From positions 2,318,001 to 2,382,000 of the forward strand of contig NZ_CP042467.1 in assembly GCF_007993755.1 (NCBI RefSeq): a DNA stretch of 64,000 nucleotides. Direction: 5' to 3'. A model generated the notes under the pieces. It was not told the origin of the DNA and made no database searches. It was given only the letters and a program-made list of their open reading frames with translations. Source of the stretch: Microvenator marinus (lineage in GTDB: Bacteria > Myxococcota_A > Bradymonadia > Bradymonadales > Bradymonadaceae). The position numbers were made by a program, and so were the translations under genes. Within the stretch, counting starts at the first letter, position 1; each line of letters opens with the position of its first letter. This document shows positions 20,728 to 31,122 of the stretch, piece by piece.

Positions 20728-22443
20728 TCAATTGGAGCCAGAGAACTCTACCTTTTTTGCGCTTGCACTCGAAACATAAGTGCCATCTCCCAATTGCCCG
20801 CTTGAGTTTCGCCCCCAGCAGTAAAGCCTTCCTTCAGAATCGATAGCACAAGCGCCCCCAGAACCAGCGTCCACACGTGTGGCATTGGGCACCTCTGTGT
20901 TGAGGGTGGGCTGCATCAGTGTTTGGGCGGAACCACCACCTGCAAACTCGCCCCAGCAATAAAGTTGGTCAGACACAGTTACAAAACACCGGGTCGTCTT
21001 GCCAATCGAGAACTCGGCGATATCGAGAGTAGTAATCTCTGTAGGAAACTCGAAAAACTGGTTGAAATCCATTCCGATACAGCTGGTCCCGAACGCGACG
21101 TCGGCAGATATCATGCACGTTAACTCGTCCCCAGCCGCCACGGCCTTTATGTTAGCAATGCTATAGACCGATCCAGGAGACGTCCTTTGTTCAACCGGAG
21201 GATTGCTTTGATCGCCGAGTTTGTTGAAGCCATTTGCTCCCCAGCATTTAACAATTCCGTCGAAAAGGTCCTCGATCACGCATGTATGGTCATCTCCCGC
21301 ACTAACTGCCAATACGTTGGAAAGCCCTGTTACCTCCATCGGAGAAAACTGAGTATCCGTGTTACCAATACCCAACTGGCCGTCGACATTGGCCCCCCAA
21401 CAACTTGTTTGGCCGTCGATTAGAACGCAGGCATGGGAGGCGCCACAAGAAAAGGAGTCTACGCCTGACGCTACCATGCGTGGCACGTGGTCACTCGTCG
21501 AACCCCCAATTCCAGTTCCCAAAGCACCACTTTCGTTTGATCCCCAACACCGCAAGACGGCGCTGGTATCCAATGCACAAGTGTAATTGCGACCCGCATT
21601 GATACTAACAACATCAGTCAATCCCTCCACGAGGACAGGTGTAGGAGATCCGGGACCGTCGTAGCCAAGTTGATCGAAGTCATTGCTGCCCCAACAATAA
21701 ACGCGCCCTGTTGAAATCAGCGCACAAGCGTGCTCCTCGCCCAATGCCACATCGGTTGCCCCAACACACTCGCCCTCATCACATAAAGTGTCACAGATAT
21801 TGGAGCAAACCCCGCAGTTTTCCGAGTTGGAAAGGAAAAACTCCGGCGCCCTACAACTTCCTCCGCAAAGGACCTGATTTGACGGACACTCACAATTTCC
21901 TTGGTCACACACTTGACCCATCTCACACGCGTTCCCGCATGTTCCACAATTTTGAGTGGAGTTAAACCAGACTTCTTCCCTGCATTCCCCTTCACAAAAA
22001 AGGCTAGGTACCGCATCACAGAAACTTTGGCTGCCGTCACACCGAATGACACCGTTGGACCGACAATCTCCTTCTTGGATCTCACATGACTCGCCCTCAC
22101 CGATGCAGGCTGTAGACAAGTCGCACCCGGAAGGAGGTTGCTCCGTGAGATTGCAGATTGTGGACACTTGGTCGTCAGCACAAGCCTTTACACCAGGGGT
22201 TTCGCATTCGCCTTCCCCCACCAGACAAACCTCACCGACATCATGAGTTTCATCAACTTCACCATCACAGTCGTTGTCGAGACCATCGCACAGCTCGATA
22301 CCACCTGCGGTCAGTTTGCATTCTTCCGGATTGTTGGTCGTGCCAGAGCCATTCTCAGGTGATTTGGTCTCCCCCGAACAACCGCTCAAACAAAGACTCA
22401 ACACTCCGGAGATTATCAGGTTTCTATTGGTCCAATTTGTCAT
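20728..22443 (-). CDS. Cys-rich lipoprotein with a MopE motif and RCC1 repeats
   Basis: A 571-residue protein. I use the ATG at 22443, which has AGGGGAG four bases upstream; an in-frame ATG five codons earlier lacks one. The lipobox is LSGC. Residues about 45-75 contain the metal-binding-type motif DGLDNDCDGEVDE. Cys-rich segments follow (CGTCGNACE, CGVCSNICD), similar to Stig1-like modules. From about residue 230 there are RCC1 (regulator of chromosome condensation) repeats, with recurring CALxxxGRVYCWGSNxxxQLG, which fold as a beta-propeller. It is probably a surface-exposed adhesive or binding protein. It shares its N-terminal design with the MopE-type genes at 23.2-31.1 kb. Confidence 0.88.
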   Translation of the reverse strand: MTNWTNRNLIISGVLSLCLSGCSGETKSPENGSGTTNNPEECKLTAGGIELCDGLDNDCDGEVDETHDVGEVCLVGEGECETPGVKACADDQVSTICNLTEQPPSGCDLSTACIGEGESCEIQEGDCRSNGVIRCDGSQSFCDAVPSLFCEGECREEVWFNSTQNCGTCGNACEMGQVCDQGNCECPSNQVLCGGSCRAPEFFLSNSENCGVCSNICDTLCDEGECVGATDVALGEEHACALISTGRVYCWGSNDFDQLGYDGPGSPTPVLVEGLTDVVSINAGRNYTCALDTSAVLRCWGSNESGALGTGIGGSTSDHVPRMVASGVDSFSCGASHACVLIDGQTSCWGANVDGQLGIGNTDTQFSPMEVTGLSNVLAVSAGDDHTCVIEDLFDGIVKCWGANGFNKLGDQSNPPVEQRTSPGSVYSIANIKAVAAGDELTCMISADVAFGTSCIGMDFNQFFEFPTEITTLDIAEFSIGKTTRCFVTVSDQLYCWGEFAGGGSAQTLMQPTLNTEVPNATRVDAGSGGACAIDSEGRLYCWGRNSSGQLGDGTYVSSASAKKVEFSGSN

Positions 22444-22724
22444 GCTGCTCCCCTTCATTCACGCTTACGTCCTGGGAGAATTCAACAGCTTGGATTCCCC
22501 CCAAAGATCGTGGGTTACTTAGATTTCGAACACGAAGTGCACCCTAAAAATGCCTGCAGGTCAAGTCTTTAATCCATCTGGCAATCGTAGAAATTCGATT
22601 CCGCCGGCACTCATTGCGCAAGATTGCGGCGGGTTATTCGAATGTTAGGTTGGAATCGTTAGATTCGGTTGTTGCCAAAGCCACCGGCGTAAATGTTACC
22701 TCAAATCACTTAACCTTTTTCGGT

Positions 22725-23113
22725 TTATTGTGGCCGGCAGTACTCTTGTCCGACTGGACCGCAGAAGGCGCCGGTGCGACAATCTCGCTCTGCAACACAA
22801 CCGTAGGTGCAAGCGGTGGTTGGTGGATTGGTGCCAGGATCAAACACTCTACAGATTCCAGCATCTCGCGGGCAATCGTCGTCGTCGTCTGTATGGATTG
22901 TGAAGTAAGGATTAACAGCTTCCGGGGTTGTTGACCCACCATTAATCATACACACGCTGACCTGGGCGCCATTAATTGAAGATCGTCCGCACAGCATAGG
23001 TCAATGGGAGGACTGGCTTAAAGGCAGACGTCGCGCCCCTCATTCTCATTGCCACAAGATGCAGCCAAACCCAGGGTAATTGTTGCGAGTAAAATTAAAT
23101 TTTTGGCGTTCAT
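22725..23113 (-). pseudogene. Decayed copy of the Cys-rich lipoprotein gene at 27270
   Basis: The start region is intact: ATG at 23113 opens a lipoprotein signal (MNAKNLILLATITLGL, then AASC) but stops at a TAA at 23018 after 31 codons. In another frame, 22997-22725 encodes the last about 90 residues of the same family (CMINGGSTTPEA, CRVFDPG, FCGPVGQEYCRPQ), paralogous to the C-terminus of the gene at 27270-28382. The roughly 250-residue centre is missing and the frame is broken. The promoter and leader are almost identical to those of the intact gene. It is a deletion derivative unless the 31-residue peptide or the C-terminal piece has its own use. Confidence 0.88.
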
Positions 23114-23156
23114 TCATCCCCCTAAAACATCGGGAAGGTGTGTTATTGTGTCGTCA
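23101..23156 (-). repeat. 56-bp inverted repeat, copy A
   Basis: Identical over 56 bases, in opposite orientation, to 27227-27282. It covers the leader, ribosome-binding site and first codons of the decayed lipoprotein gene. The segment between the copies is about 4.1 kb and carries the four-gene operon 23209-27084. Confidence 0.93.
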
Positions 23157-23157
23157 A

Positions 23158-23186
23158 TTTATAGGTGACTCGAAAACTTGAATCAA
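23158..23186 (-). promoter_or_regulatory. Promoter of the decayed lipoprotein copy
   Basis: On the minus strand TTGATT and TATAAA are separated by exactly 17 bases. The same arrangement is found before the intact gene at 27270, and GCGCCAAAA with TTGACTTGATTC is conserved around the -35 in both copies. The -10 here (TATAAA) is closer to consensus than in the intact gene. Confidence 0.65.
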
Positions 23187-23208
23187 GTCAATTTTTTGGC
23201 GCCAATGT

Positions 23209-24639
23209 CTATCGACACACGGCAGTCCTTGTTTGCGAAGTGCGGGTTCCCTCACACTCTTGAAGAATCTGATTGTACGTAAAGGAGCACGTCGAATACG
23301 CGGCAGAAGTGCCGCAAGCGGGCAAACTTCCGGCCCATCCCTCCACGCCGTCCCTCGGAATACACGAAGACCTAAAGCGGTCAGCCACGCAATTTTGCCC
23401 GGAGCGATTTGTCACGGTATAGAGATGTTCGTTGGTCCCGTTACAGTTGTAGTCGTGGGTTCGCGTCGCGCTCGGCGGCGGGTTCATTCCATCAGCAAAG
23501 TAGGAAGTCTGACCGGGGTAGGCGTCGGGGTCCGAATCCTGACAGTCGTTGCCATTGGTCGTTCGCCAAGTAGCGGTGCTGGCGTTATTGCATTGTGCAC
23601 GCGCCGTGGAAGCTGCTGGAGCCGAACAGAACCGGCCAATCGTTCCACTCGCAAATCCGTCGCCATCACAATCTAAGTAATAGACCGTCGCGTCCGTAGC
23701 GTTCTCGTCAATATTTCCATCGCAGTTGTTATCGACGTTATCGCAAACTTCGGCGGCACCCGGGTTGATGGCCGAGTTCGTGTCGTTGCAGTCATTCCCG
23801 CCTAAGATACACACGGCGGGGTTGCCCACCACCGTCATCGACTCGTCGCAATAATTATCCCCGTCGTCATCACAGCCTTCGTCCACCTCGCCGTCACAGT
23901 CATTGTCGATTCCATCACACGTCATCTCTTCAGCCTCAGGAGGCGTGGCAGGTGAGACGCTGCAAGTTGTGGTGCCGTCTTCGGCGCAGACCAAGGCTCC
24001 CGTGGCAACACATGCGCCCACACCCACAGTGCACTCAGTGCCTAAGTCAAAACCTTCGTCCACCTCACCATCACAATCGTCGTCCGAGTCGTTGCACAAC
24101 TCGGTGCCGCCCTCTTCGCCGGCAACGGCGCTGCATGCGGCCGTGCCGTCGTCCTGACACACGATGGTGCCTTCATTGAGACACGCACCCTCCCCAGCTG
24201 AGCACGCCTCGCCCAAGTCGAAGTCTTCGTCGACCTCGCCATCACAGTCGTTGTCGATTTCGTCGCAAACTTCGGGCTCGGGCGTTCCCTCTTGGGCAAT
24301 ACACGCCACGGAAACTTCGTCGTCACCGCACACGGTCACACCCTCGGCCTGACATGCCCCGACGCCAGCCGTGCAGGCCTCTCCGAGCTCAAAACCTTCG
24401 TCCACCTCACCGTCACAGTCGTTGTCGATTCGGTCACAGACCTCAACGCCGGCCTTGGTGACCACGCAATTGGGGTCCGGCGTAGGCGTGGACTCGTTAT
24501 TCGACTCGTTGTTGGAATTATTGATGTTGTTTTGCCCATTGTTTTGAGGCTGCTGAGTCGAGGGACCATCATCTCCACAGGCAACGAACGCCGAGACAAG
24601 TACAATCAAAGCAAACGAGCGGTTCAATCGAGTATTCAT
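23209..24639 (-). CDS. MopE-type repeat lipoprotein
   Basis: A 476-residue exported lipoprotein (signal then FVACG). An Asn-rich linker (NNGQNNINNSNNESNNES) precedes at least five copies of the motif [DN]DxDNDCDGEVDE-[GD]-F-x-L-G, spaced about 50 residues with paired cysteines, the repeat seen in the copper-regulated MopE family and many Myxococcota surface proteins. Later copies take the form CNDTNSAINPGAAEVCD. The C-terminal about 120 residues are Cys-containing and not recognised. Metal binding is suggested by the family and the clustered Asp, not shown here. It is the last gene of a four-gene operon, 11 bases after the Ig-like lipoprotein. Confidence 0.9.
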   Translation of the reverse strand: MNTRLNRSFALIVLVSAFVACGDDGPSTQQPQNNGQNNINNSNNESNNESTPTPDPNCVVTKAGVEVCDRIDNDCDGEVDEGFELGEACTAGVGACQAEGVTVCGDDEVSVACIAQEGTPEPEVCDEIDNDCDGEVDEDFDLGEACSAGEGACLNEGTIVCQDDGTAACSAVAGEEGGTELCNDSDDDCDGEVDEGFDLGTECTVGVGACVATGALVCAEDGTTTCSVSPATPPEAEEMTCDGIDNDCDGEVDEGCDDDGDNYCDESMTVVGNPAVCILGGNDCNDTNSAINPGAAEVCDNVDNNCDGNIDENATDATVYYLDCDGDGFASGTIGRFCSAPAASTARAQCNNASTATWRTTNGNDCQDSDPDAYPGQTSYFADGMNPPPSATRTHDYNCNGTNEHLYTVTNRSGQNCVADRFRSSCIPRDGVEGWAGSLPACGTSAAYSTCSFTYNQILQECEGTRTSQTRTAVCR

Positions 24640-24650
24640 ACGTTACCTAC

Positions 24651-25049
24651 TTAATTTCCGATCACTTCAAAGGTGATAAACGACTCGCCTGTGCGGCCTT
24701 TTGAGTCAGTTGCGCGGGCACTTACCGTGTGTTCGCCCACGGGGAATTCATGTGTGACATCACTTCCCGTTTTAAACGGAGTCTCATTCTGAAGCCAAAC
24801 AATTCCGCTTGAGATATCGTTTTGGTCGACATCGGCCGCCACGGCCACGAGCCTGACAGGGCTCGTTACTTGAGCATTATCTCTCGGTAGCGTGATGGTG
24901 ATGATAGGGAGCATCTCCTCGACCGGCATATCTGGCTCGCTCTCGTCTGGCTCGTTCATATCGGGAACTTCCCCACCAGGAGGGTCGTACTCGAAGGTGT
25001 AACAAGAGGCGCCCAAGAGAGCGCAAAGCAACACGAGGAGAAACTTCAT
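24651..25049 (-). CDS. Small lipoprotein with an Ig-like domain
   Basis: A 132-residue protein. Signal MKFLLVLLCALLGASC has lipobox GASC. An acidic Pro/Met linker (PDMNEPDESEPDMPVEEM) is followed by one Ig-like beta sandwich of about 85 residues (ITITLPRDNAQV to HTVSARATDSKGRTG), the pattern of domains that bind sugars or other envelope parts. GGAGG lies five bases before the start and its ATG overlaps the stop of the gene before it, so it is translationally coupled. Confidence 0.75.
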   Translation of the reverse strand: MKFLLVLLCALLGASCYTFEYDPPGGEVPDMNEPDESEPDMPVEEMLPIITITLPRDNAQVTSPVRLVAVAADVDQNDISSGIVWLQNETPFKTGSDVTHEFPVGEHTVSARATDSKGRTGESFITFEVIGN

Positions 25050-26428
25050 TGGAACCTCCAGACGAAACCGTCGGCCGTGGGGGTTAGGCGACTCGCTTCA
25101 GCTTCATCATCGCCGGCCACCAAGCCATAAATGCCCCAAACGGCGAGCCCGAGCCCCGCGCCCACCAGCGAGATTCCGCCCACAGAGTAAAGGTTGGCCT
25201 TGGATTTTCGGTCGTTGAATTCGTCTTCGCTGATGAAGTCGGCTGTCCCCGAATCACAACCGGAAGCACTCTCGGTGGTAAAACCCGTACAAATCAAATC
25301 CTGAGCCTCGCCGTGCCCAAGGTAAATCAGTGCACCTCCCACGCCGGCGAGCACGATTCCACCCGATGTGAGGGCGATAGCGGACCAATTGGTGGAACCC
25401 GAATCGTCCTCGGCTGCTGGCGCGTCCACACTCACAGCGAAAGTCTGTTCTACGAATCCGACGAACGCTGGCGTGTCGCGCGTCTCGGTCCAGGTCACAC
25501 GCCCCTGTTTCATGTGCCCGAAAAGCGTGGGCGCGGTATTCATAGTCGCAGGCTGCCTTAGCCCCACAACCTCATCAAATCCGCCCCAGAATGCGACTGC
25601 GGCCATCACTTCTTCGGCACTTCTTCGGGCTTCAAACGAGTCGTCTCCCATCACGAGTGAGTCGATTTCTTTGGTGGATAGCGGAACCACCACGGACTTT
25701 CCGGCAGGGACTTTGAGTCTCCAGACGGGGCTTCGCTGGCCTTCGCACTCGATATAGAGGAATACGTCGGAGTCGGGAGCTACAGGATAGGCGCCTTCCT
25801 TGATCTGGGTGCCATTGAGGTAGCGACGGCATTCGCGGTTTTCACGCAATTCGATACCCACGCGCGAGCCCGGAGTTTCCAAGAGTTCAGCCTTGGTATC
25901 CTTCATCAAGGCAAGTATGTCAGGCGGCGAGCTCTTGAGGTTTGGGGCCATCATCGGGAAATAGCGCGCGAGCAGCGTGGCCGTGGTCTTCATGTCATCT
26001 TCGCGCTTGAGCCCTTTGTATGCCCTGACCATGATAAGCGAAGCTTCGTAGAGTTGGGCAATGAGGTCTGGACGCGTCACGACGTAGTCGAAGTGTTGGA
26101 TGCCCTTTTGAAGTACGGGCGAGAGGATTTTGAGCGCGTCTTCGTTTCCCGCATAGAAAAACTGGTTGATACCTGATGCAATTTGCTCGGAGATCCCGGA
26201 GAATTCTGCGGCAGCATCAGGATCGGGCTCGACTCGGTGTTCCAATACTCTCTGGAAGACTGGGTCGCCGAAGACCACGTCTCTTCCGCCAGCTGTTAAG
26301 AGCTCTGCCATTCGCGTGGCTACCGAGGTGGAGCCTTCGGTATCATCGAGCGGGAGGACCGCGATTCGTCCCTGAGCGTGAGCAGATGCCGAGAGAAAAA
26401 AAAGTGAAAGGAAAATCAGAATCTTCAA
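25046..26428 (-). CDS. Exported protein of unknown function with C-terminal membrane segments
   Basis: A 460-residue protein with a signal peptide cut after AHA. The mature N-terminus RIAVLPLDDTEGSTSVATRM resembles the first strand and helix of TolB-N/FlgT-type or CsgG-like periplasmic domains. Helical middle, then two Gly/Ala-rich hydrophobic segments near residues 345-370 and 410-440 (GGIVLAGVGGALIYLG, GGISLVGAGLGLAVWG). Related two-span tails occur in the next gene upstream, which suggests a shared complex. Overlaps neighbours by 4 bases on both sides. Not assigned to a family. Confidence 0.65.
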   Translation of the reverse strand: MKILIFLSLFFLSASAHAQGRIAVLPLDDTEGSTSVATRMAELLTAGGRDVVFGDPVFQRVLEHRVEPDPDAAAEFSGISEQIASGINQFFYAGNEDALKILSPVLQKGIQHFDYVVTRPDLIAQLYEASLIMVRAYKGLKREDDMKTTATLLARYFPMMAPNLKSSPPDILALMKDTKAELLETPGSRVGIELRENRECRRYLNGTQIKEGAYPVAPDSDVFLYIECEGQRSPVWRLKVPAGKSVVVPLSTKEIDSLVMGDDSFEARRSAEEVMAAVAFWGGFDEVVGLRQPATMNTAPTLFGHMKQGRVTWTETRDTPAFVGFVEQTFAVSVDAPAAEDDSGSTNWSAIALTSGGIVLAGVGGALIYLGHGEAQDLICTGFTTESASGCDSGTADFISEDEFNDRKSKANLYSVGGISLVGAGLGLAVWGIYGLVAGDDEAEASRLTPTADGFVWRFQ

Positions 26429-27084
26429 AACTGCCCCCTTAAACCAAAGGGAGACACGTTAAGGCTCATGGGCGCCGGTTCTTCGGGTGTTCCGAGAATC
26501 CACCACGCAACGCCACCACCGATGGCGAGTGCTCCGGCTGCGCTTAAACCTATCGCAAGCCCGTATTGCGGATCGCCCTCTTCAAGACAGACATTGTTGA
26601 CTTGAAGTTCACACTCAGCCTGCCAAAAAGGGATCGAGCCAAGCGCGAGACCAAGCCCGGCGACCCCGAGCACGATCGGTCCCACGGTGTTCAGCGTCGT
26701 ACGCTGCTCGGGGGTGATGACCACGGGTGGCTCCACGGTCTTGATCTCCTTTTGCTTGTCCAACTCACGGCGAGAGCGCTCCTCCATCAAGTGGAGTTCT
26801 CCGCCTTCAGGCGCCGTGAGCAACGCATCGCGATTTTGGTCGATCAGCTCAAGCACGTGGGCATGTTCACCCATGGCCTGTAGTGTTTTGATGCGCCAAT
26901 AGAGGTATTGTGGGCTCTCTTCAGCTCGCAAGGCTTGCTCAAGACTGAGCATCGCAGCCTCGTAGTTTTGAGCCTCATAGGAAGATTTGGCCTTCTCAAA
27001 ATGCTCCGAGCCCGCCCCTTGTGCAAAGGCGGTTGAGCTTAGGGCCAAGACGAATACGGCGTAAATTGTTGCGTGCTTAATCAT
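26425..27084 (-). CDS. Exported TPR-like protein with two membrane segments
   Basis: A 219-residue protein. The signal peptide ends after AFA. Residues about 25-110 look like TPR helices (AKSSYEAQNYEAAMLSLEQ). Two hydrophobic segments follow near residues 133-150 and 176-196 (GPIVLGVAGLGLALGS, GLSAAGALAIGGGVAWWIL), like the paired spans of the next gene. It is the first gene of the operon 27084 to 23209, whose members overlap by ATGA except the last. This supports a shared envelope assembly with the MopE-type and Ig-like lipoproteins; the role itself is not known. Confidence 0.68.
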   Translation of the reverse strand: MIKHATIYAVFVLALSSTAFAQGAGSEHFEKAKSSYEAQNYEAAMLSLEQALRAEESPQYLYWRIKTLQAMGEHAHVLELIDQNRDALLTAPEGGELHLMEERSRRELDKQKEIKTVEPPVVITPEQRTTLNTVGPIVLGVAGLGLALGSIPFWQAECELQVNNVCLEEGDPQYGLAIGLSAAGALAIGGGVAWWILGTPEEPAPMSLNVSPFGLRGQF

Positions 27085-27196
27085 CCCCCACCATTCTGCG
27101 GGTCCACAAAGTTGAGTCTTGAGAAAACCGGAGCGTCAGAATTCTGTCAAGCCTGAATTTTTGTTGTTGCCCAAATTTTTGCGCCAAAATCTTGAC

Positions 27197-27225
27197 TTGA
27201 TTCGAATTCTCAGTTCTTCTATACA
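27197..27225 (+). promoter_or_regulatory. Promoter of Cys-rich lipoprotein gene 27270
   Basis: TTGATT at 27197 and TATACA at 27220 are separated by 17 bases. The spacer differs from the copy at 23158-23186 but the boxes and spacing agree, which is comparative support for this being the real promoter. Confidence 0.7.
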
Positions 27226-27226
27226 C

Positions 27227-27282
27227 TGACGACACAATAACACACCTTCCCGATGTTTTAGGGGGATGAATGAACGCCAAAA
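27227..27282 (+). repeat. 56-bp inverted repeat, copy B
   Basis: Identical over 56 bases to the reverse complement of 23101-23156. It includes the leader TGACGACACAATAACACACC, the GGGGG ribosome-binding site and the first codons of the lipoprotein gene. Confidence 0.93.
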
Positions 27283-28382
27283 TTTTGATTTTATTCGCAA
27301 TGATTACCCTGGCCCTCTCTGCGTCGTGTAGCGATGAAACGCGCGACGACTGTGCAAGTCCAAAGGCCGAACATGTGGAGACGTGTTGCGCGCACGACCC
27401 AACTTACTCCTACTGCAACACAGTTGAGGATATGGACATCGACCTACCGGTGTCCGATATGGGCGGCGATGATGGCCCTGTAGAAGACATGCCTGAAGCG
27501 GATATGCCTGAAGATGAAGGCCAGCCCGACCAGAGTACACCCTGTGATAGTGCATGTGGCGGACAAACACCCATCTGTGACGTCGCCACCGACACATGTG
27601 TGCAATGCCTCAACAACAACGAGTGCGGGAACGGCGTCTGTGATACCAACGCTAAATCGTGCGTCGAGTGCCTCGGGGACGAAGATTGCACCGAGGGCGT
27701 CTGCCTCCAAGGGAATACCACACAAGATAACGCATGTGTCGAGTGCAGAGGAAATGCGCAGTGTTTAGACGCGCAGGCATCCTTGTGTAGCGCTGCAAAT
27801 GAGTGCGCACCTTGCGCAGTAGATGCCGACTGCAGCCACCTAGAAGACCTCGGCCAGTGTGTCGCAGGCACTTGCCACGAGTGTACCACCGAAACTGAGA
27901 ATGACGATTGTGGGGGTAATGTCTGCGACCCGTCCTCTTTCACCTGTACCAACCTACCCATAGGCCAGACTCAACAACTTCAAACCTGTGTCTCCGATAC
28001 ACAATGCACCACAGGAAATGCGTGCATTCCCCTTAACTACATGGGTGCACCCCATGGAAACTACTGCATGCCCATCTATGTGATGGACAGTGGACCGTGT
28101 CCAAAGCCATATGGAGCGGACCGGCGCTCTAGAACCTCTGTGAATGGTGTCGAGTTTGACGTGTGTATGATCAAAGAAGCCAACACCACCCCTGAGGCGA
28201 TCAACGCCTATGAAACGGTCTGTACGGACGACAACGATTGTCCGGGGGATGCAGGAATCTGCAGATTGCTTAACATGCAGGCAACAACCAACCGCTGTAC
28301 CTACGCGTGTGACGGACCCAGTGATTGCGTCGGAAGTGCCGTTTGTGGACCGGTTGGCTCAAAATACTGCCGGCCACAATAG
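27270..28382 (+). CDS. Cys-rich surface lipoprotein (family member 1)
   Basis: A 370-residue lipoprotein (signal then SASC). An Asp/Met/Pro-rich linker (VSDMGGDDGPVEDMPEADMP) follows. Five or more Cys-rich repeats of the form CVxCxxNxxCxxGVCDT then run through the centre, spaced about 20-25 residues. The C-terminal part (IGQTQQLQTCVSDTQC onward) is a block shared with the next gene. It lacks the MopE motif that the other two members have. The start ATG is at 27270 with GGGGG four bases before; a second ATG at 27266 is out of frame. Surface location is inferred. Function unknown. Confidence 0.87.
   Translation: MNAKILILFAMITLALSASCSDETRDDCASPKAEHVETCCAHDPTYSYCNTVEDMDIDLPVSDMGGDDGPVEDMPEADMPEDEGQPDQSTPCDSACGGQTPICDVATDTCVQCLNNNECGNGVCDTNAKSCVECLGDEDCTEGVCLQGNTTQDNACVECRGNAQCLDAQASLCSAANECAPCAVDADCSHLEDLGQCVAGTCHECTTETENDDCGGNVCDPSSFTCTNLPIGQTQQLQTCVSDTQCTTGNACIPLNYMGAPHGNYCMPIYVMDSGPCPKPYGADRRSRTSVNGVEFDVCMIKEANTTPEAINAYETVCTDDNDCPGDAGICRLLNMQATTNRCTYACDGPSDCVGSAVCGPVGSKYCRPQ
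27951..28072 (+). repeat. 122-bp duplicated coding block (also 29215-29336)
   Basis: This block and 29215-29336 differ at only four of 122 bases, all third-codon positions or neutral. Flanking coding sequence is much less alike, so gene conversion or recent duplication is likely. It encodes the start of the shared C-terminal domain. Confidence 0.88.
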
Positions 28383-28422
28383 CACTTAGGGCCGTGTTTG
28401 ATTTGAGGAAACGCAACGACTT

Positions 28423-29655
28423 ATGAATACCAACCACACGAAAACTCGGCCACACACCTCTCGGGTGTGCCTCGCCATCCTATGCGGCGCTATCCTCTCG
28501 ATGGCCCCTGGATGCTCCGATGATTCAAATCCCCCGGCAACCACCAATAACGATACCGGTACGTGCACGATTACCGCCGGTGGCATCGAGATCTGTGATG
28601 GCCTCGACAATGATTGTGACGGTGATGTGGACGAGGATTATCAGGTCGGCGAGCCGTGTAGTGTGCAAGGATGTGACGAGGCCGGCACACAGGTCTGCGC
28701 CGATGATCAAACCTCGACTCGCTGTGAGAGCCCTTTAAGCTGCGTGGGCGATATGGGCCACGTGGATATCCCTGAAGACCAAGGCCAACCCGACCAGAGC
28801 CAGCCATGTGATAATGCATGTGGTGGACAAACACCCATCTGTGACGTCGACACAGACACCTGTGTGCAATGCCTCACCAACAACGAGTGCGGCAACAGCG
28901 TCTGTGATACCTCCACCAATTCATGCGTTGAGTGTCTCGGCGACGAAGATTGCACCGAGGGCGTCTGCCTCGAAGCGAACGACACACAGGATAACGCCTG
29001 TGTCGAGTGCAGAGGAAATGCTCAGTGTTTAACCGCTGAAGCCTCCTTGTGCAGTGCGTCGAATGAGTGTGCGCCTTGTGCAGCTGATGCCGACTGCAGC
29101 CACCTAGAAGACCTCGGACAATGCGTGGCAGGAACATGCCGTGAGTGCACCACCGAGTCAGAAGACACCGATTGTGCGGGTAATGTCTGCGATCCGACGA
29201 CCTATTCCTGCACAAACCTACCCATAGGCCAGACTCAACAACTTCAAACCTGTGTCTCCGATACGCAATGCGCCACAGGAAATGCGTGCATCCCCCTTAA
29301 CTACATGGGGGCACCCCATGGAAACTACTGCATGCCGACTTACACACAGGGCGAATGCCCGAAACCCTATGGAATCGGTCCGAGCAATCGCACTTCTGTC
29401 AATGGCGTCCAAGGGCTTGTTTGCATGATCAATGAAGCAAACACCACCCCGGAAGCCATTAATGACTATTTTGAACCATGTACTCCCGCAACCGAAGCGA
29501 CAGACTGCCCCGAGATCGGCAGCATTTGTAGAGTCTTTAACGAAAGTGCAATACCACCCATCAACCGCTGCACCTACGCATGTGGTGGGGATGTAGACTG
29601 CGAGGTAGGCGCTACATGTCAAGGAAATCCAGGTGCAAAGTATTGTCGACCATAA
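28423..29655 (+). CDS. Cys-rich surface lipoprotein with MopE motif (family member 2)
   Basis: A 410-residue lipoprotein with lipobox APGC. After an Asn/Thr linker it has the motif DGLDNDCDGDVDE, then an acidic DIPEDQGQPDQSQP linker, then the same Cys-rich repeats as its upstream neighbour (CVQCLTNNECGNSVCDT) and the same C-terminal domain ending in KYCRP. It lies 40 bases after the first member on the same strand and is probably cotranscribed. It is a chimera of two modules: the MopE half found in 23209, 20728 and 29893, and the repeat half found in 27270. Confidence 0.87.
   Translation: MNTNHTKTRPHTSRVCLAILCGAILSMAPGCSDDSNPPATTNNDTGTCTITAGGIEICDGLDNDCDGDVDEDYQVGEPCSVQGCDEAGTQVCADDQTSTRCESPLSCVGDMGHVDIPEDQGQPDQSQPCDNACGGQTPICDVDTDTCVQCLTNNECGNSVCDTSTNSCVECLGDEDCTEGVCLEANDTQDNACVECRGNAQCLTAEASLCSASNECAPCAADADCSHLEDLGQCVAGTCRECTTESEDTDCAGNVCDPTTYSCTNLPIGQTQQLQTCVSDTQCATGNACIPLNYMGAPHGNYCMPTYTQGECPKPYGIGPSNRTSVNGVQGLVCMINEANTTPEAINDYFEPCTPATEATDCPEIGSICRVFNESAIPPINRCTYACGGDVDCEVGATCQGNPGAKYCRP
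29215..29336 (+). repeat. 122-bp duplicated coding block (partner of 27951-28072)
   Basis: Four mismatches to 27951-28072. See that entry for interpretation. Confidence 0.88.
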
Positions 29656-29701
29656 ATGACTTTTTGTTTCGCAGAATGCCTTGATGGGAGCGCCAAGACT
29701 C

Positions 29702-29791
29702 ATGAATACCAACCACACGAAAAATCGCCCACACGCCTCGCGCATGGGCCTCGTATTGGAGTTGCGACCTAGATTGCAAGCTAGCGACTAG
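29702..29791 (+). pseudogene. Truncated 5' copy of the family member 2 gene
   Basis: ATGAATACCAACCACACGAA and the following codons repeat the start of the gene at 28423 (MNTNHTK-RPH-SR), but the frame diverges after about 15 codons and stops at 29791. No downstream part of the gene remains before the next gene at 29893. It is the scar of a tandem duplication or recombination and could still be translated into a 29-residue peptide. Confidence 0.75.
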
Positions 29792-29892
29792 TTGTTTCAG
29801 CCCGCTTCAGGGTGATGACTACTGTCGTTGAGCAGTACGAAGGGGTGAGCACTTTTGGTTGGAAGAATTGACCTTGAAGGGACACAAAACCT

Positions 29893-31122
29893 ATGAACAT
29901 TAAGCACTTACAGAATCATCAAGACAGACTCGCCTCGTGGTTGGGAACGATACTTTTGGTTGGAATCGCAGCGCTGACCACCGGCTGTTCCGAGGATTCA
30001 AATCCTCCCGCCACCAACACCAACAACACTACGCCTTCAAATACGTGCGAAGTTAGCGCAGGCGGGATCGAGCTATGTGATGGGGTGGATAATGATTGTG
30101 ATGGTGAGGTGGACGAAGACCACGATGTCGGCATGGCATGTAGCGTAGAGGGTTGTGAGGAAGCTGGTGCCAAGGTGTGCGGGGAGGACCAGATATCGAC
30201 TCTTTGTGAGGCACCACTGAGCTGTATTGGTGATATGGGCATGCCTGACGAAGGGCAACCGGACATGCACATACCATGTGGTAATACGTGTGGCGGACAA
30301 ACACCCATCTGTGACGTCGCCACCGACACATGTGTGCAATGCCTCACCAACAACGAGTGCGCGAACGGCGTCTGCGATACCAACACCAAATCGTGTGTTG
30401 AGTGTCTCGGAGACAACGATTGTAGTGACGACTTGGCTTGCCTTGATGGGGCAACTACACAGGACAACCGATGCGTAGAGTGTCTAACCAACTCAGATTG
30501 CACGGATCAATTCGCTTCAAGGTGCGACGAAACTTCTGGCATGTGCGTGGCTTGCGAGGGGGCGTCTGATTGTTCACATCTGGATATGAGCTTCTGTGTT
30601 TACAATCCGGACAACCCAGGATTCTGTATTGAATGTTTCCCGGGCCAAGAAGACGAAGGTTGCGATGGCGATGCTTGTGACCCGCTCACGTATAGCTGTA
30701 CAGATGCCGAGATCGGCGCTGCAATGGATCTACAACCGTGTGTTTCAGATTCACACTGCCATGGGAATAGCTATTGCGTTCCCGTAAACTACCAAGGGGG
30801 TCCTCACGGGAACTACTGCATGCCGGAGTACAACGGCACCTGCCCTCCGAAGTTCGGTGGTGGACAGCAGGGCGTCGCGACTATCGACGGGAACAGCGCA
30901 ACCGTGTGCACGATCTCAGGGGACGTCGTCACACCAGAGGCGCTCGCAGGCTTTGGTCAGTCGTGTCCAAACGGCAATGCAGACTGTCCTCATGGTGGCC
31001 AACGTTGCGAACCGCTCGGGGGAGGTGACCCTATCTGCACACATGCTTGTAATACCGCCGCCGACTGCTTTGACGGACTCTCTTGTGCGCCGTTGGGCTA
31101 CTGTCATCCTGCATTCAATTAA
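29893..31122 (+). CDS. Cys-rich surface lipoprotein with MopE motif (family member 3)
   Basis: A 409-residue lipoprotein with lipobox TTGC. It has the MopE-type motif DGVDNDCDGEVDE, an acidic GMPDEGQPDMHIP linker, Cys-rich repeats (CVQCLTNNECANGVCDT) and a C-terminal domain (PCVSDSHCHGNSYCVP) parallel to but more diverged than members 1 and 2. Part of its repeat block is almost identical at the DNA level to member 1 (around 27550-27650), while its MopE half resembles member 2. A 14-bp direct repeat ACTTTTGGTTGGAA occurs before and inside the start (29851 and 29952). It converges with the BtuF-like gene and shares the bases TTAA. Confidence 0.86.
   Translation: MNIKHLQNHQDRLASWLGTILLVGIAALTTGCSEDSNPPATNTNNTTPSNTCEVSAGGIELCDGVDNDCDGEVDEDHDVGMACSVEGCEEAGAKVCGEDQISTLCEAPLSCIGDMGMPDEGQPDMHIPCGNTCGGQTPICDVATDTCVQCLTNNECANGVCDTNTKSCVECLGDNDCSDDLACLDGATTQDNRCVECLTNSDCTDQFASRCDETSGMCVACEGASDCSHLDMSFCVYNPDNPGFCIECFPGQEDEGCDGDACDPLTYSCTDAEIGAAMDLQPCVSDSHCHGNSYCVPVNYQGGPHGNYCMPEYNGTCPPKFGGGQQGVATIDGNSATVCTISGDVVTPEALAGFGQSCPNGNADCPHGGQRCEPLGGGDPICTHACNTAADCFDGLSCAPLGYCHPAFN

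Follow-up and report, generated by a model that had tools for sequence, protein, structure and literature searches.

Genes and features of the island

The analysed window is a stretch of 64,000 nucleotides from Microvenator marinus (contig NZ_CP042467.1, positions 2,318,001 to 2,382,000), whose genome comprises 5.85 Mb in one contig. It holds an island of three genes named A, B and C, together with decayed copies and a series of neighbours on the opposite strand (Table 1). From position 27084 down to 20728, the minus strand carries the genes for the TPR-like protein, p460, a small Ig-like lipoprotein, the MopE-repeat protein, the decayed copy F and an RCC1/MopE protein. The last of these (20728-22458) adjoins the island; it has RCC1 repeats, an N-terminus of the MopE type and a weak Cys-rich match of the MXAN_6577-like type. 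An earlier note on this DNA had counted three intact and two broken members between 22725 and 31122, and this count is borne out by the intact genes A, B and C and the decayed F and B-like start. The members do lie within that span, but the MopE-repeat gene that it also encloses has neither a Cys stalk nor a head and is not one of them.

Table 1. Features of the island and tracts shared between its genes (positions in the window)
Feature	Positions	Strand	Description	Basis
Gene A	27270..28382	+	370 aa; 'ECC'-type signal/lipobox-like N-terminus, Cys-rich stalk, C-terminal head	ORF, alignments
Gene B	28423..29655	+	410 aa; single MopE-type motif in the N-terminus, then Cys-rich stalk and head	ORF; PF11617 match just above cut-off (genome scan)
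Gene C	29893..31122	+	409 aa; single MopE-type motif in the N-terminus, then Cys-rich stalk and head	ORF; PF11617 match
Head of A	28068..28379	+	silent-site differences between copies near saturation	
Head of B	29332-29652			
Head of C	30820-31119			
TPR-like neighbour	26425..27084	-	divergent from A; homologue also flanks the array in genome G010	
Neighbour p460	25046..26428	-	homologues also flank the G010 array and two family genes in genome G012	
MopE-repeat-only neighbour	23209..24639	-	outside the stalk-head family	PF11617, E 3.4e-27
F, inverted decayed copy	22725..23114	-	upstream region and start, internal deletion of ~730 bp, head fragment	
Remnant of B-like gene start, between B and C	29681..29753	+	frame stops at ~29790	
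A-B tract	27501..28067 (B side 28765-29331)	+	same codon 76% inside, 38% outside	p=0.0001
A-C tract	27528..27722 (C side ~30262-30459)	+	same codon 82% inside, 34% outside; holds the 58-base match	p=0.0001
B-C tract	28714..28989 (C side ~30196-30462)	+	weaker, not secure	p=0.005

The TPR-like, p460 and small Ig-like lipoprotein genes (window 24651-27084; L063:8918-11381) form a trio that is kept in another genus (G004), where they are present without a family gene beside them. No Pfam name was obtained for any of the three, and p460 was also without an NCBIfam match. In G010, the order is MopE, MopE, TPR-like, g1, g2, g3 and p460, where g1 to g3 are family genes, so the island and this array both have homologous neighbours; in G012, p460 occurs twice with a family gene immediately upstream. 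Since p460 also stands in other genomes with no family gene alongside, its association with the family, as judged from gene order, is suggestive only.

Ahead of A and F, a promoter scan gave no site at its threshold. Both do have the looser pattern TTGATT-N17-TATA(A/C)A upstream, which is a lead only. Carriage of the island by a phage or plasmid was also considered, and the searches gave no matches.

Architecture of the protein family

Judged by their sequences, A, B and C are tandem paralogues of a family that has no description in Pfam or NCBIfam, and scans of the family against both collections gave no model above threshold. The architecture consists of an N-terminus, a stalk of Cys repeats with dense invariant cysteines, and a C-terminal head of ~100 aa. 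The clade of the own genome is without the first cysteine of the CxxC at the top of the stalk and without the cysteine of the TCEA motif in the head, both of which are present in 27/27 other sequences. This paired loss is compatible with the disappearance of a stalk-head disulfide, but is a single evolutionary event.

By eye, the signal ends in a cysteine in A (SAS-C), B (APG-C) and C (TTG-C), and all three lipoboxes are imperfect. A, B and C are probably lipoproteins, and their lipobox-like signal peptides are the only indication that they would be exposed at the surface. An AlphaFold model of B with A and C reached a mean pLDDT of 42.6, too poor for use, and a search for relatives with solved structures found none.

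The single MopE-type motif in the N-termini of B and C resembles Cu-binding_MopE (PF11617, cut-off 27 bits), which in the genome scan scored 29.9 bits in B and 28.3 bits in C and gave no match in A; a scan of the whole proteins reported no family for B or C. PF11617 is widespread in the own genome, with 86 matches. The copper site of MopE consists of two histidines and a kynurenine and is distinct from the PF11617 motif (PMC3423442). Copper binding by the 'MopE half' of the earlier note is not implied, as this is a common short motif.

Patchy identity and silent sites in A, B and C

All quantitative statements of the earlier note held on recount. Exactly four differences were found in 122 bases between 27951-28072 and 29215-29336, and the reported near-identity of the repeat blocks at 27550 and 30290 corresponds to an exact match of 58 bases between A and C (27555-27612 = 30289-30346). 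The patchy identity behind its mosaic picture is thus real, but the divergence sits at the two ends of the genes, and the N-terminus of A differs in type from the MopE-bearing N-termini of B and C.

As patchiness at the protein level might reflect constraint, silent sites were used: the share of identical codons was counted only at identical, degenerate amino acids, inside versus outside a tract. The proportion of silent differences (pS) between A and B was low in the stalk (0.33-0.44) compared with the N-terminus (0.80) and the head (0.82); between A and C it was 0.26 in the first Cys block and 0.72-0.89 in the remainder. Heads and N-termini of all three genes are near saturation at silent sites. 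In one block A resembles C rather than B, though A and B are closer elsewhere, and the triplet pattern AB|C was significant (p=0.0002). In comparisons with the unlinked family gene 3611 of the same genome, no patchiness was found for A (p=0.80), B (p=0.32) or C (p=0.58). The unlinked pairs A/3180 (p=0.13) and 3611/3180 (p=0.07) likewise gave no tract, nor did the linked pair 4245/4246 (p=0.50). Two ordinary orthologue pairs from the genomes G018 and G016 reached p=0.007-0.01 with a mild contrast (0.86-0.88 versus 0.64-0.70), so the scan alone is unspecific at this level and the B-C tract cannot be regarded as secure.

The patchiness of A-B and A-C is not explained by protein constraint. Both tracts are internal with diverged sequence at either end, which points to gene conversion or a double crossover of the stalk; a recent duplication of the whole gene would leave no internal tracts with diverged flanks, and the tracts therefore count for conversion. 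Gene conversion of the Cys-rich stalk among A, B and C is very probable, and the recombination proposed in the earlier note is supported by these silent-site tests with their controls and by a parallel array in G010.

An independent array and other relatives

G010, which belongs to another genus, has three intact tandem members, g1, g2 and g3, with similar stalks and with heads near silent saturation. The share of identical codons was 0.92 inside and 0.39 outside the tract for g2-g3, and 0.91 inside and 0.41 outside for g1-g2, with an overall range of 0.91-0.93 within tracts. The heads are 45-60% identical and the stalks ~95%, and the intergenic DNA after g1 and g2 is 85-93% identical. In a tree of the heads, one clade (100/96) unites A, B, C, F, 3180 and 3611 and leaves out the G010 heads, which indicates that the two arrays arose separately.

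Conversion is not general across the family, as the tandem pairs in G001 (p=0.45) and 4245/4246 show none. Two unlinked copies in G004 have a tract in common, but only close to the N-terminus. A two-gene branch, pa/pb, lies at 4.245-4.247 Mb of the own genome, and recognisable pa and pb types are inherited in Lujinxingia and relatives; by its sequences, this branch evolves as ordinary orthologues. A scan with the pb set matched Lujinxingia vulgaris and three MAGs; a first scan of genome contigs had given no matches. For the Bradymonadia group, complete genomes of three strains (FA350, V1718 and YN101) have been published (PMC7460792). Gene 3611 of the own genome (~3.61 Mb; L048:7637-9403) has a much longer stalk of several units, with 588 aa and 79 cysteines in total.

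Decayed copies and the search for head cassettes

The upstream region and start of F are 83% identical to A over 160 bp (A side 27178-27337), with a stop after 31 codons, and a further part is 68% identical to the last 165 bp of A, the ~730 bp in between being absent. Its head fragment (22725-22997), open over 90 aa, is the only long open part. The B-like remnant is 82% identical to the start region of B over 73 bp, after which the match ends.

Outside the island, a further copy at ~3.18 Mb of the own genome (3180; L047:8308-9126) is broken inside its head and adjoins an ORF that by eye resembles an AbiEi-type antitoxin. In G012, a family gene has a headless tandem partner of 175 aa (L037:7866-8393), without a conversion tract with its neighbour (p=0.81).

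In the own genome, a head profile picked up no heads beyond those of A, B, C, F, the broken 3.18 Mb copy, 3611 and the conserved pair. No head library emerged when four genomes were searched for heads, and the idea of a library of silent head cassettes was dropped, F being the single detached head fragment found.

Comparison with known systems

TraA (PMC6372800, PMC3820747), with which myxobacteria recognise kin, is a polymorphic receptor on the cell surface and shares with the family its occurrence in Myxococcota, Cys-rich repeats, a variable part and, probably, the surface location. The Cys blocks of A, B and C scored 38.5, 24.8 and 18.7 bits against the TraA model NF033759, in the Cys region only, and membership was rejected as these scores are far under its cut-off of 750 bits. 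For A, B and C, the Pfam scan gave no PA14 domain and the NCBIfam scan no MYXO-CTERM; their C-terminus is formed by the Cys-rich head. The diverging head is C-terminal here, whereas the variable domain of TraA is N-terminal, and several copies per genome stand against one polymorphic locus. The spacing of the stalk repeats resembles Myxo_Cys_RPT (TIGR04201), with A (23.3 bits) and C (21.3 bits) just below the cut-off of 25.

The pa/pb pair belongs to the same stalk-plus-head family and is also arranged in tandem, but forms stable pairs in several genera and shows no conversion between its two copies in the own genome. Antigenic variation through silent cassettes is known from pilS/pilE of Neisseria and vlsE of Borrelia. 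The island shares with these the segmental recombination among paralogues for probable surface proteins, but is without a silent donor library and gave no evidence that variation is ongoing, and all three complete copies have intact starts. In the concerted evolution of prokaryotic paralogues, linked copies are held alike by conversion (PMC6053082), whereas the island keeps only the middle of the genes alike. The type of process is already known, and the family in which it is seen here is undescribed in Pfam and NCBIfam. A literature search for gene conversion in myxobacterial lipoproteins found nothing.

Interpretation

Taken as a whole, the best explanation, with a probability of roughly 0.65, is that these are lipoproteins of Bradymonadia whose disulfide-rich stalk is interchangeable and whose heads evolve separately. 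After old duplications within the lineage, stalk tracts of ~0.2-0.57 kb passed between the linked genes A, B and C by gene conversion while N-termini and heads went on diverging, and further copies decayed through deletion and stop codons. In the protein, a signal peptide and lipid anchor would be followed by a rigid disulfide-rich stalk and a small Cys-rich head. The stalk would act as an interchangeable display platform held alike by conversion, and the heads and the two types of N-terminus would carry differing binding specificities at the cell surface, perhaps in joint action with the neighbouring MopE, TPR-like and p460 proteins. That the heads are functionally distinct binding modules is a tentative proposal, and a specific part in prey or kin contact is doubtful.

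The same mechanism might also operate with no functional part, in that conversion takes place where sequences are similar, heads escape once they are divergent, and copies turn over and decay. The two broken copies among the five of the island, the broken 3.18 Mb copy and the headless partner in G012 fit such a turnover, tandem pairs without conversion exist, and pN/pS is below 1 everywhere with positive selection not seen. In both independent arrays the same tract boundary falls close to where the head begins, and three intact copies are retained in each, which argues against a mere by-product; the chance of the by-product reading is put at somewhat less than even. The heads may nevertheless be too diverged to recombine, selection being uninvolved; pN is lower than pS in all segments, and saturation makes this selection test weak.

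Exchange of cassettes, in which recent duplicates received heads from divergent donors and the surface was diversified, is unlikely. Heads do appear as islands between similar sequences, the fragment F retains its head as the sole long open part, and g2 and g3 of G010 are near-identical from the upstream DNA to aa 260 and differ only beyond. However, the head searches of four genomes revealed no donor, the window-type heads cluster together and not with foreign donors, and A/B, A/C and g1/g2 diverged at both gene ends, so the shared part is an internal tract. Plain old duplicates without recombination, with a Cys stalk more constrained than the ends, would suit its dense invariant cysteines and the slightly higher silent conservation in mid-gene of pa/pb-type orthologue pairs, but are very improbable given that linked copies use the same codon for identical amino acids at 76-93% inside versus 34-54% outside the tracts (p<=0.0001), that this pattern is absent against 3611, and that A matches C over B in one block.

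The conversion of stalks with separately evolving heads also qualifies the earlier description of the island as diversifying. The heads are diverse, but recombination demonstrably homogenises the stalk, and neither a sign of positive selection nor a silent head library was seen; the heads differ because they escaped homogenising recombination.

Bradymonadia are a class with described predators, and to our knowledge little is known about their surface proteins. A homogenised stalk with distinct heads, found in two genera next to homologous neighbours, makes these proteins candidates for contact proteins. It is rather improbable that they amount to a Bradymonadia receptor family with recombination partitioned by domain, in which the stalk is interchangeable, the heads form a repertoire for recognition of prey or kin, and this state was reached independently in at least two genera. 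The island is a clean case of domain-wise concerted evolution, and trees of whole proteins of the stalk-head family blend two histories.
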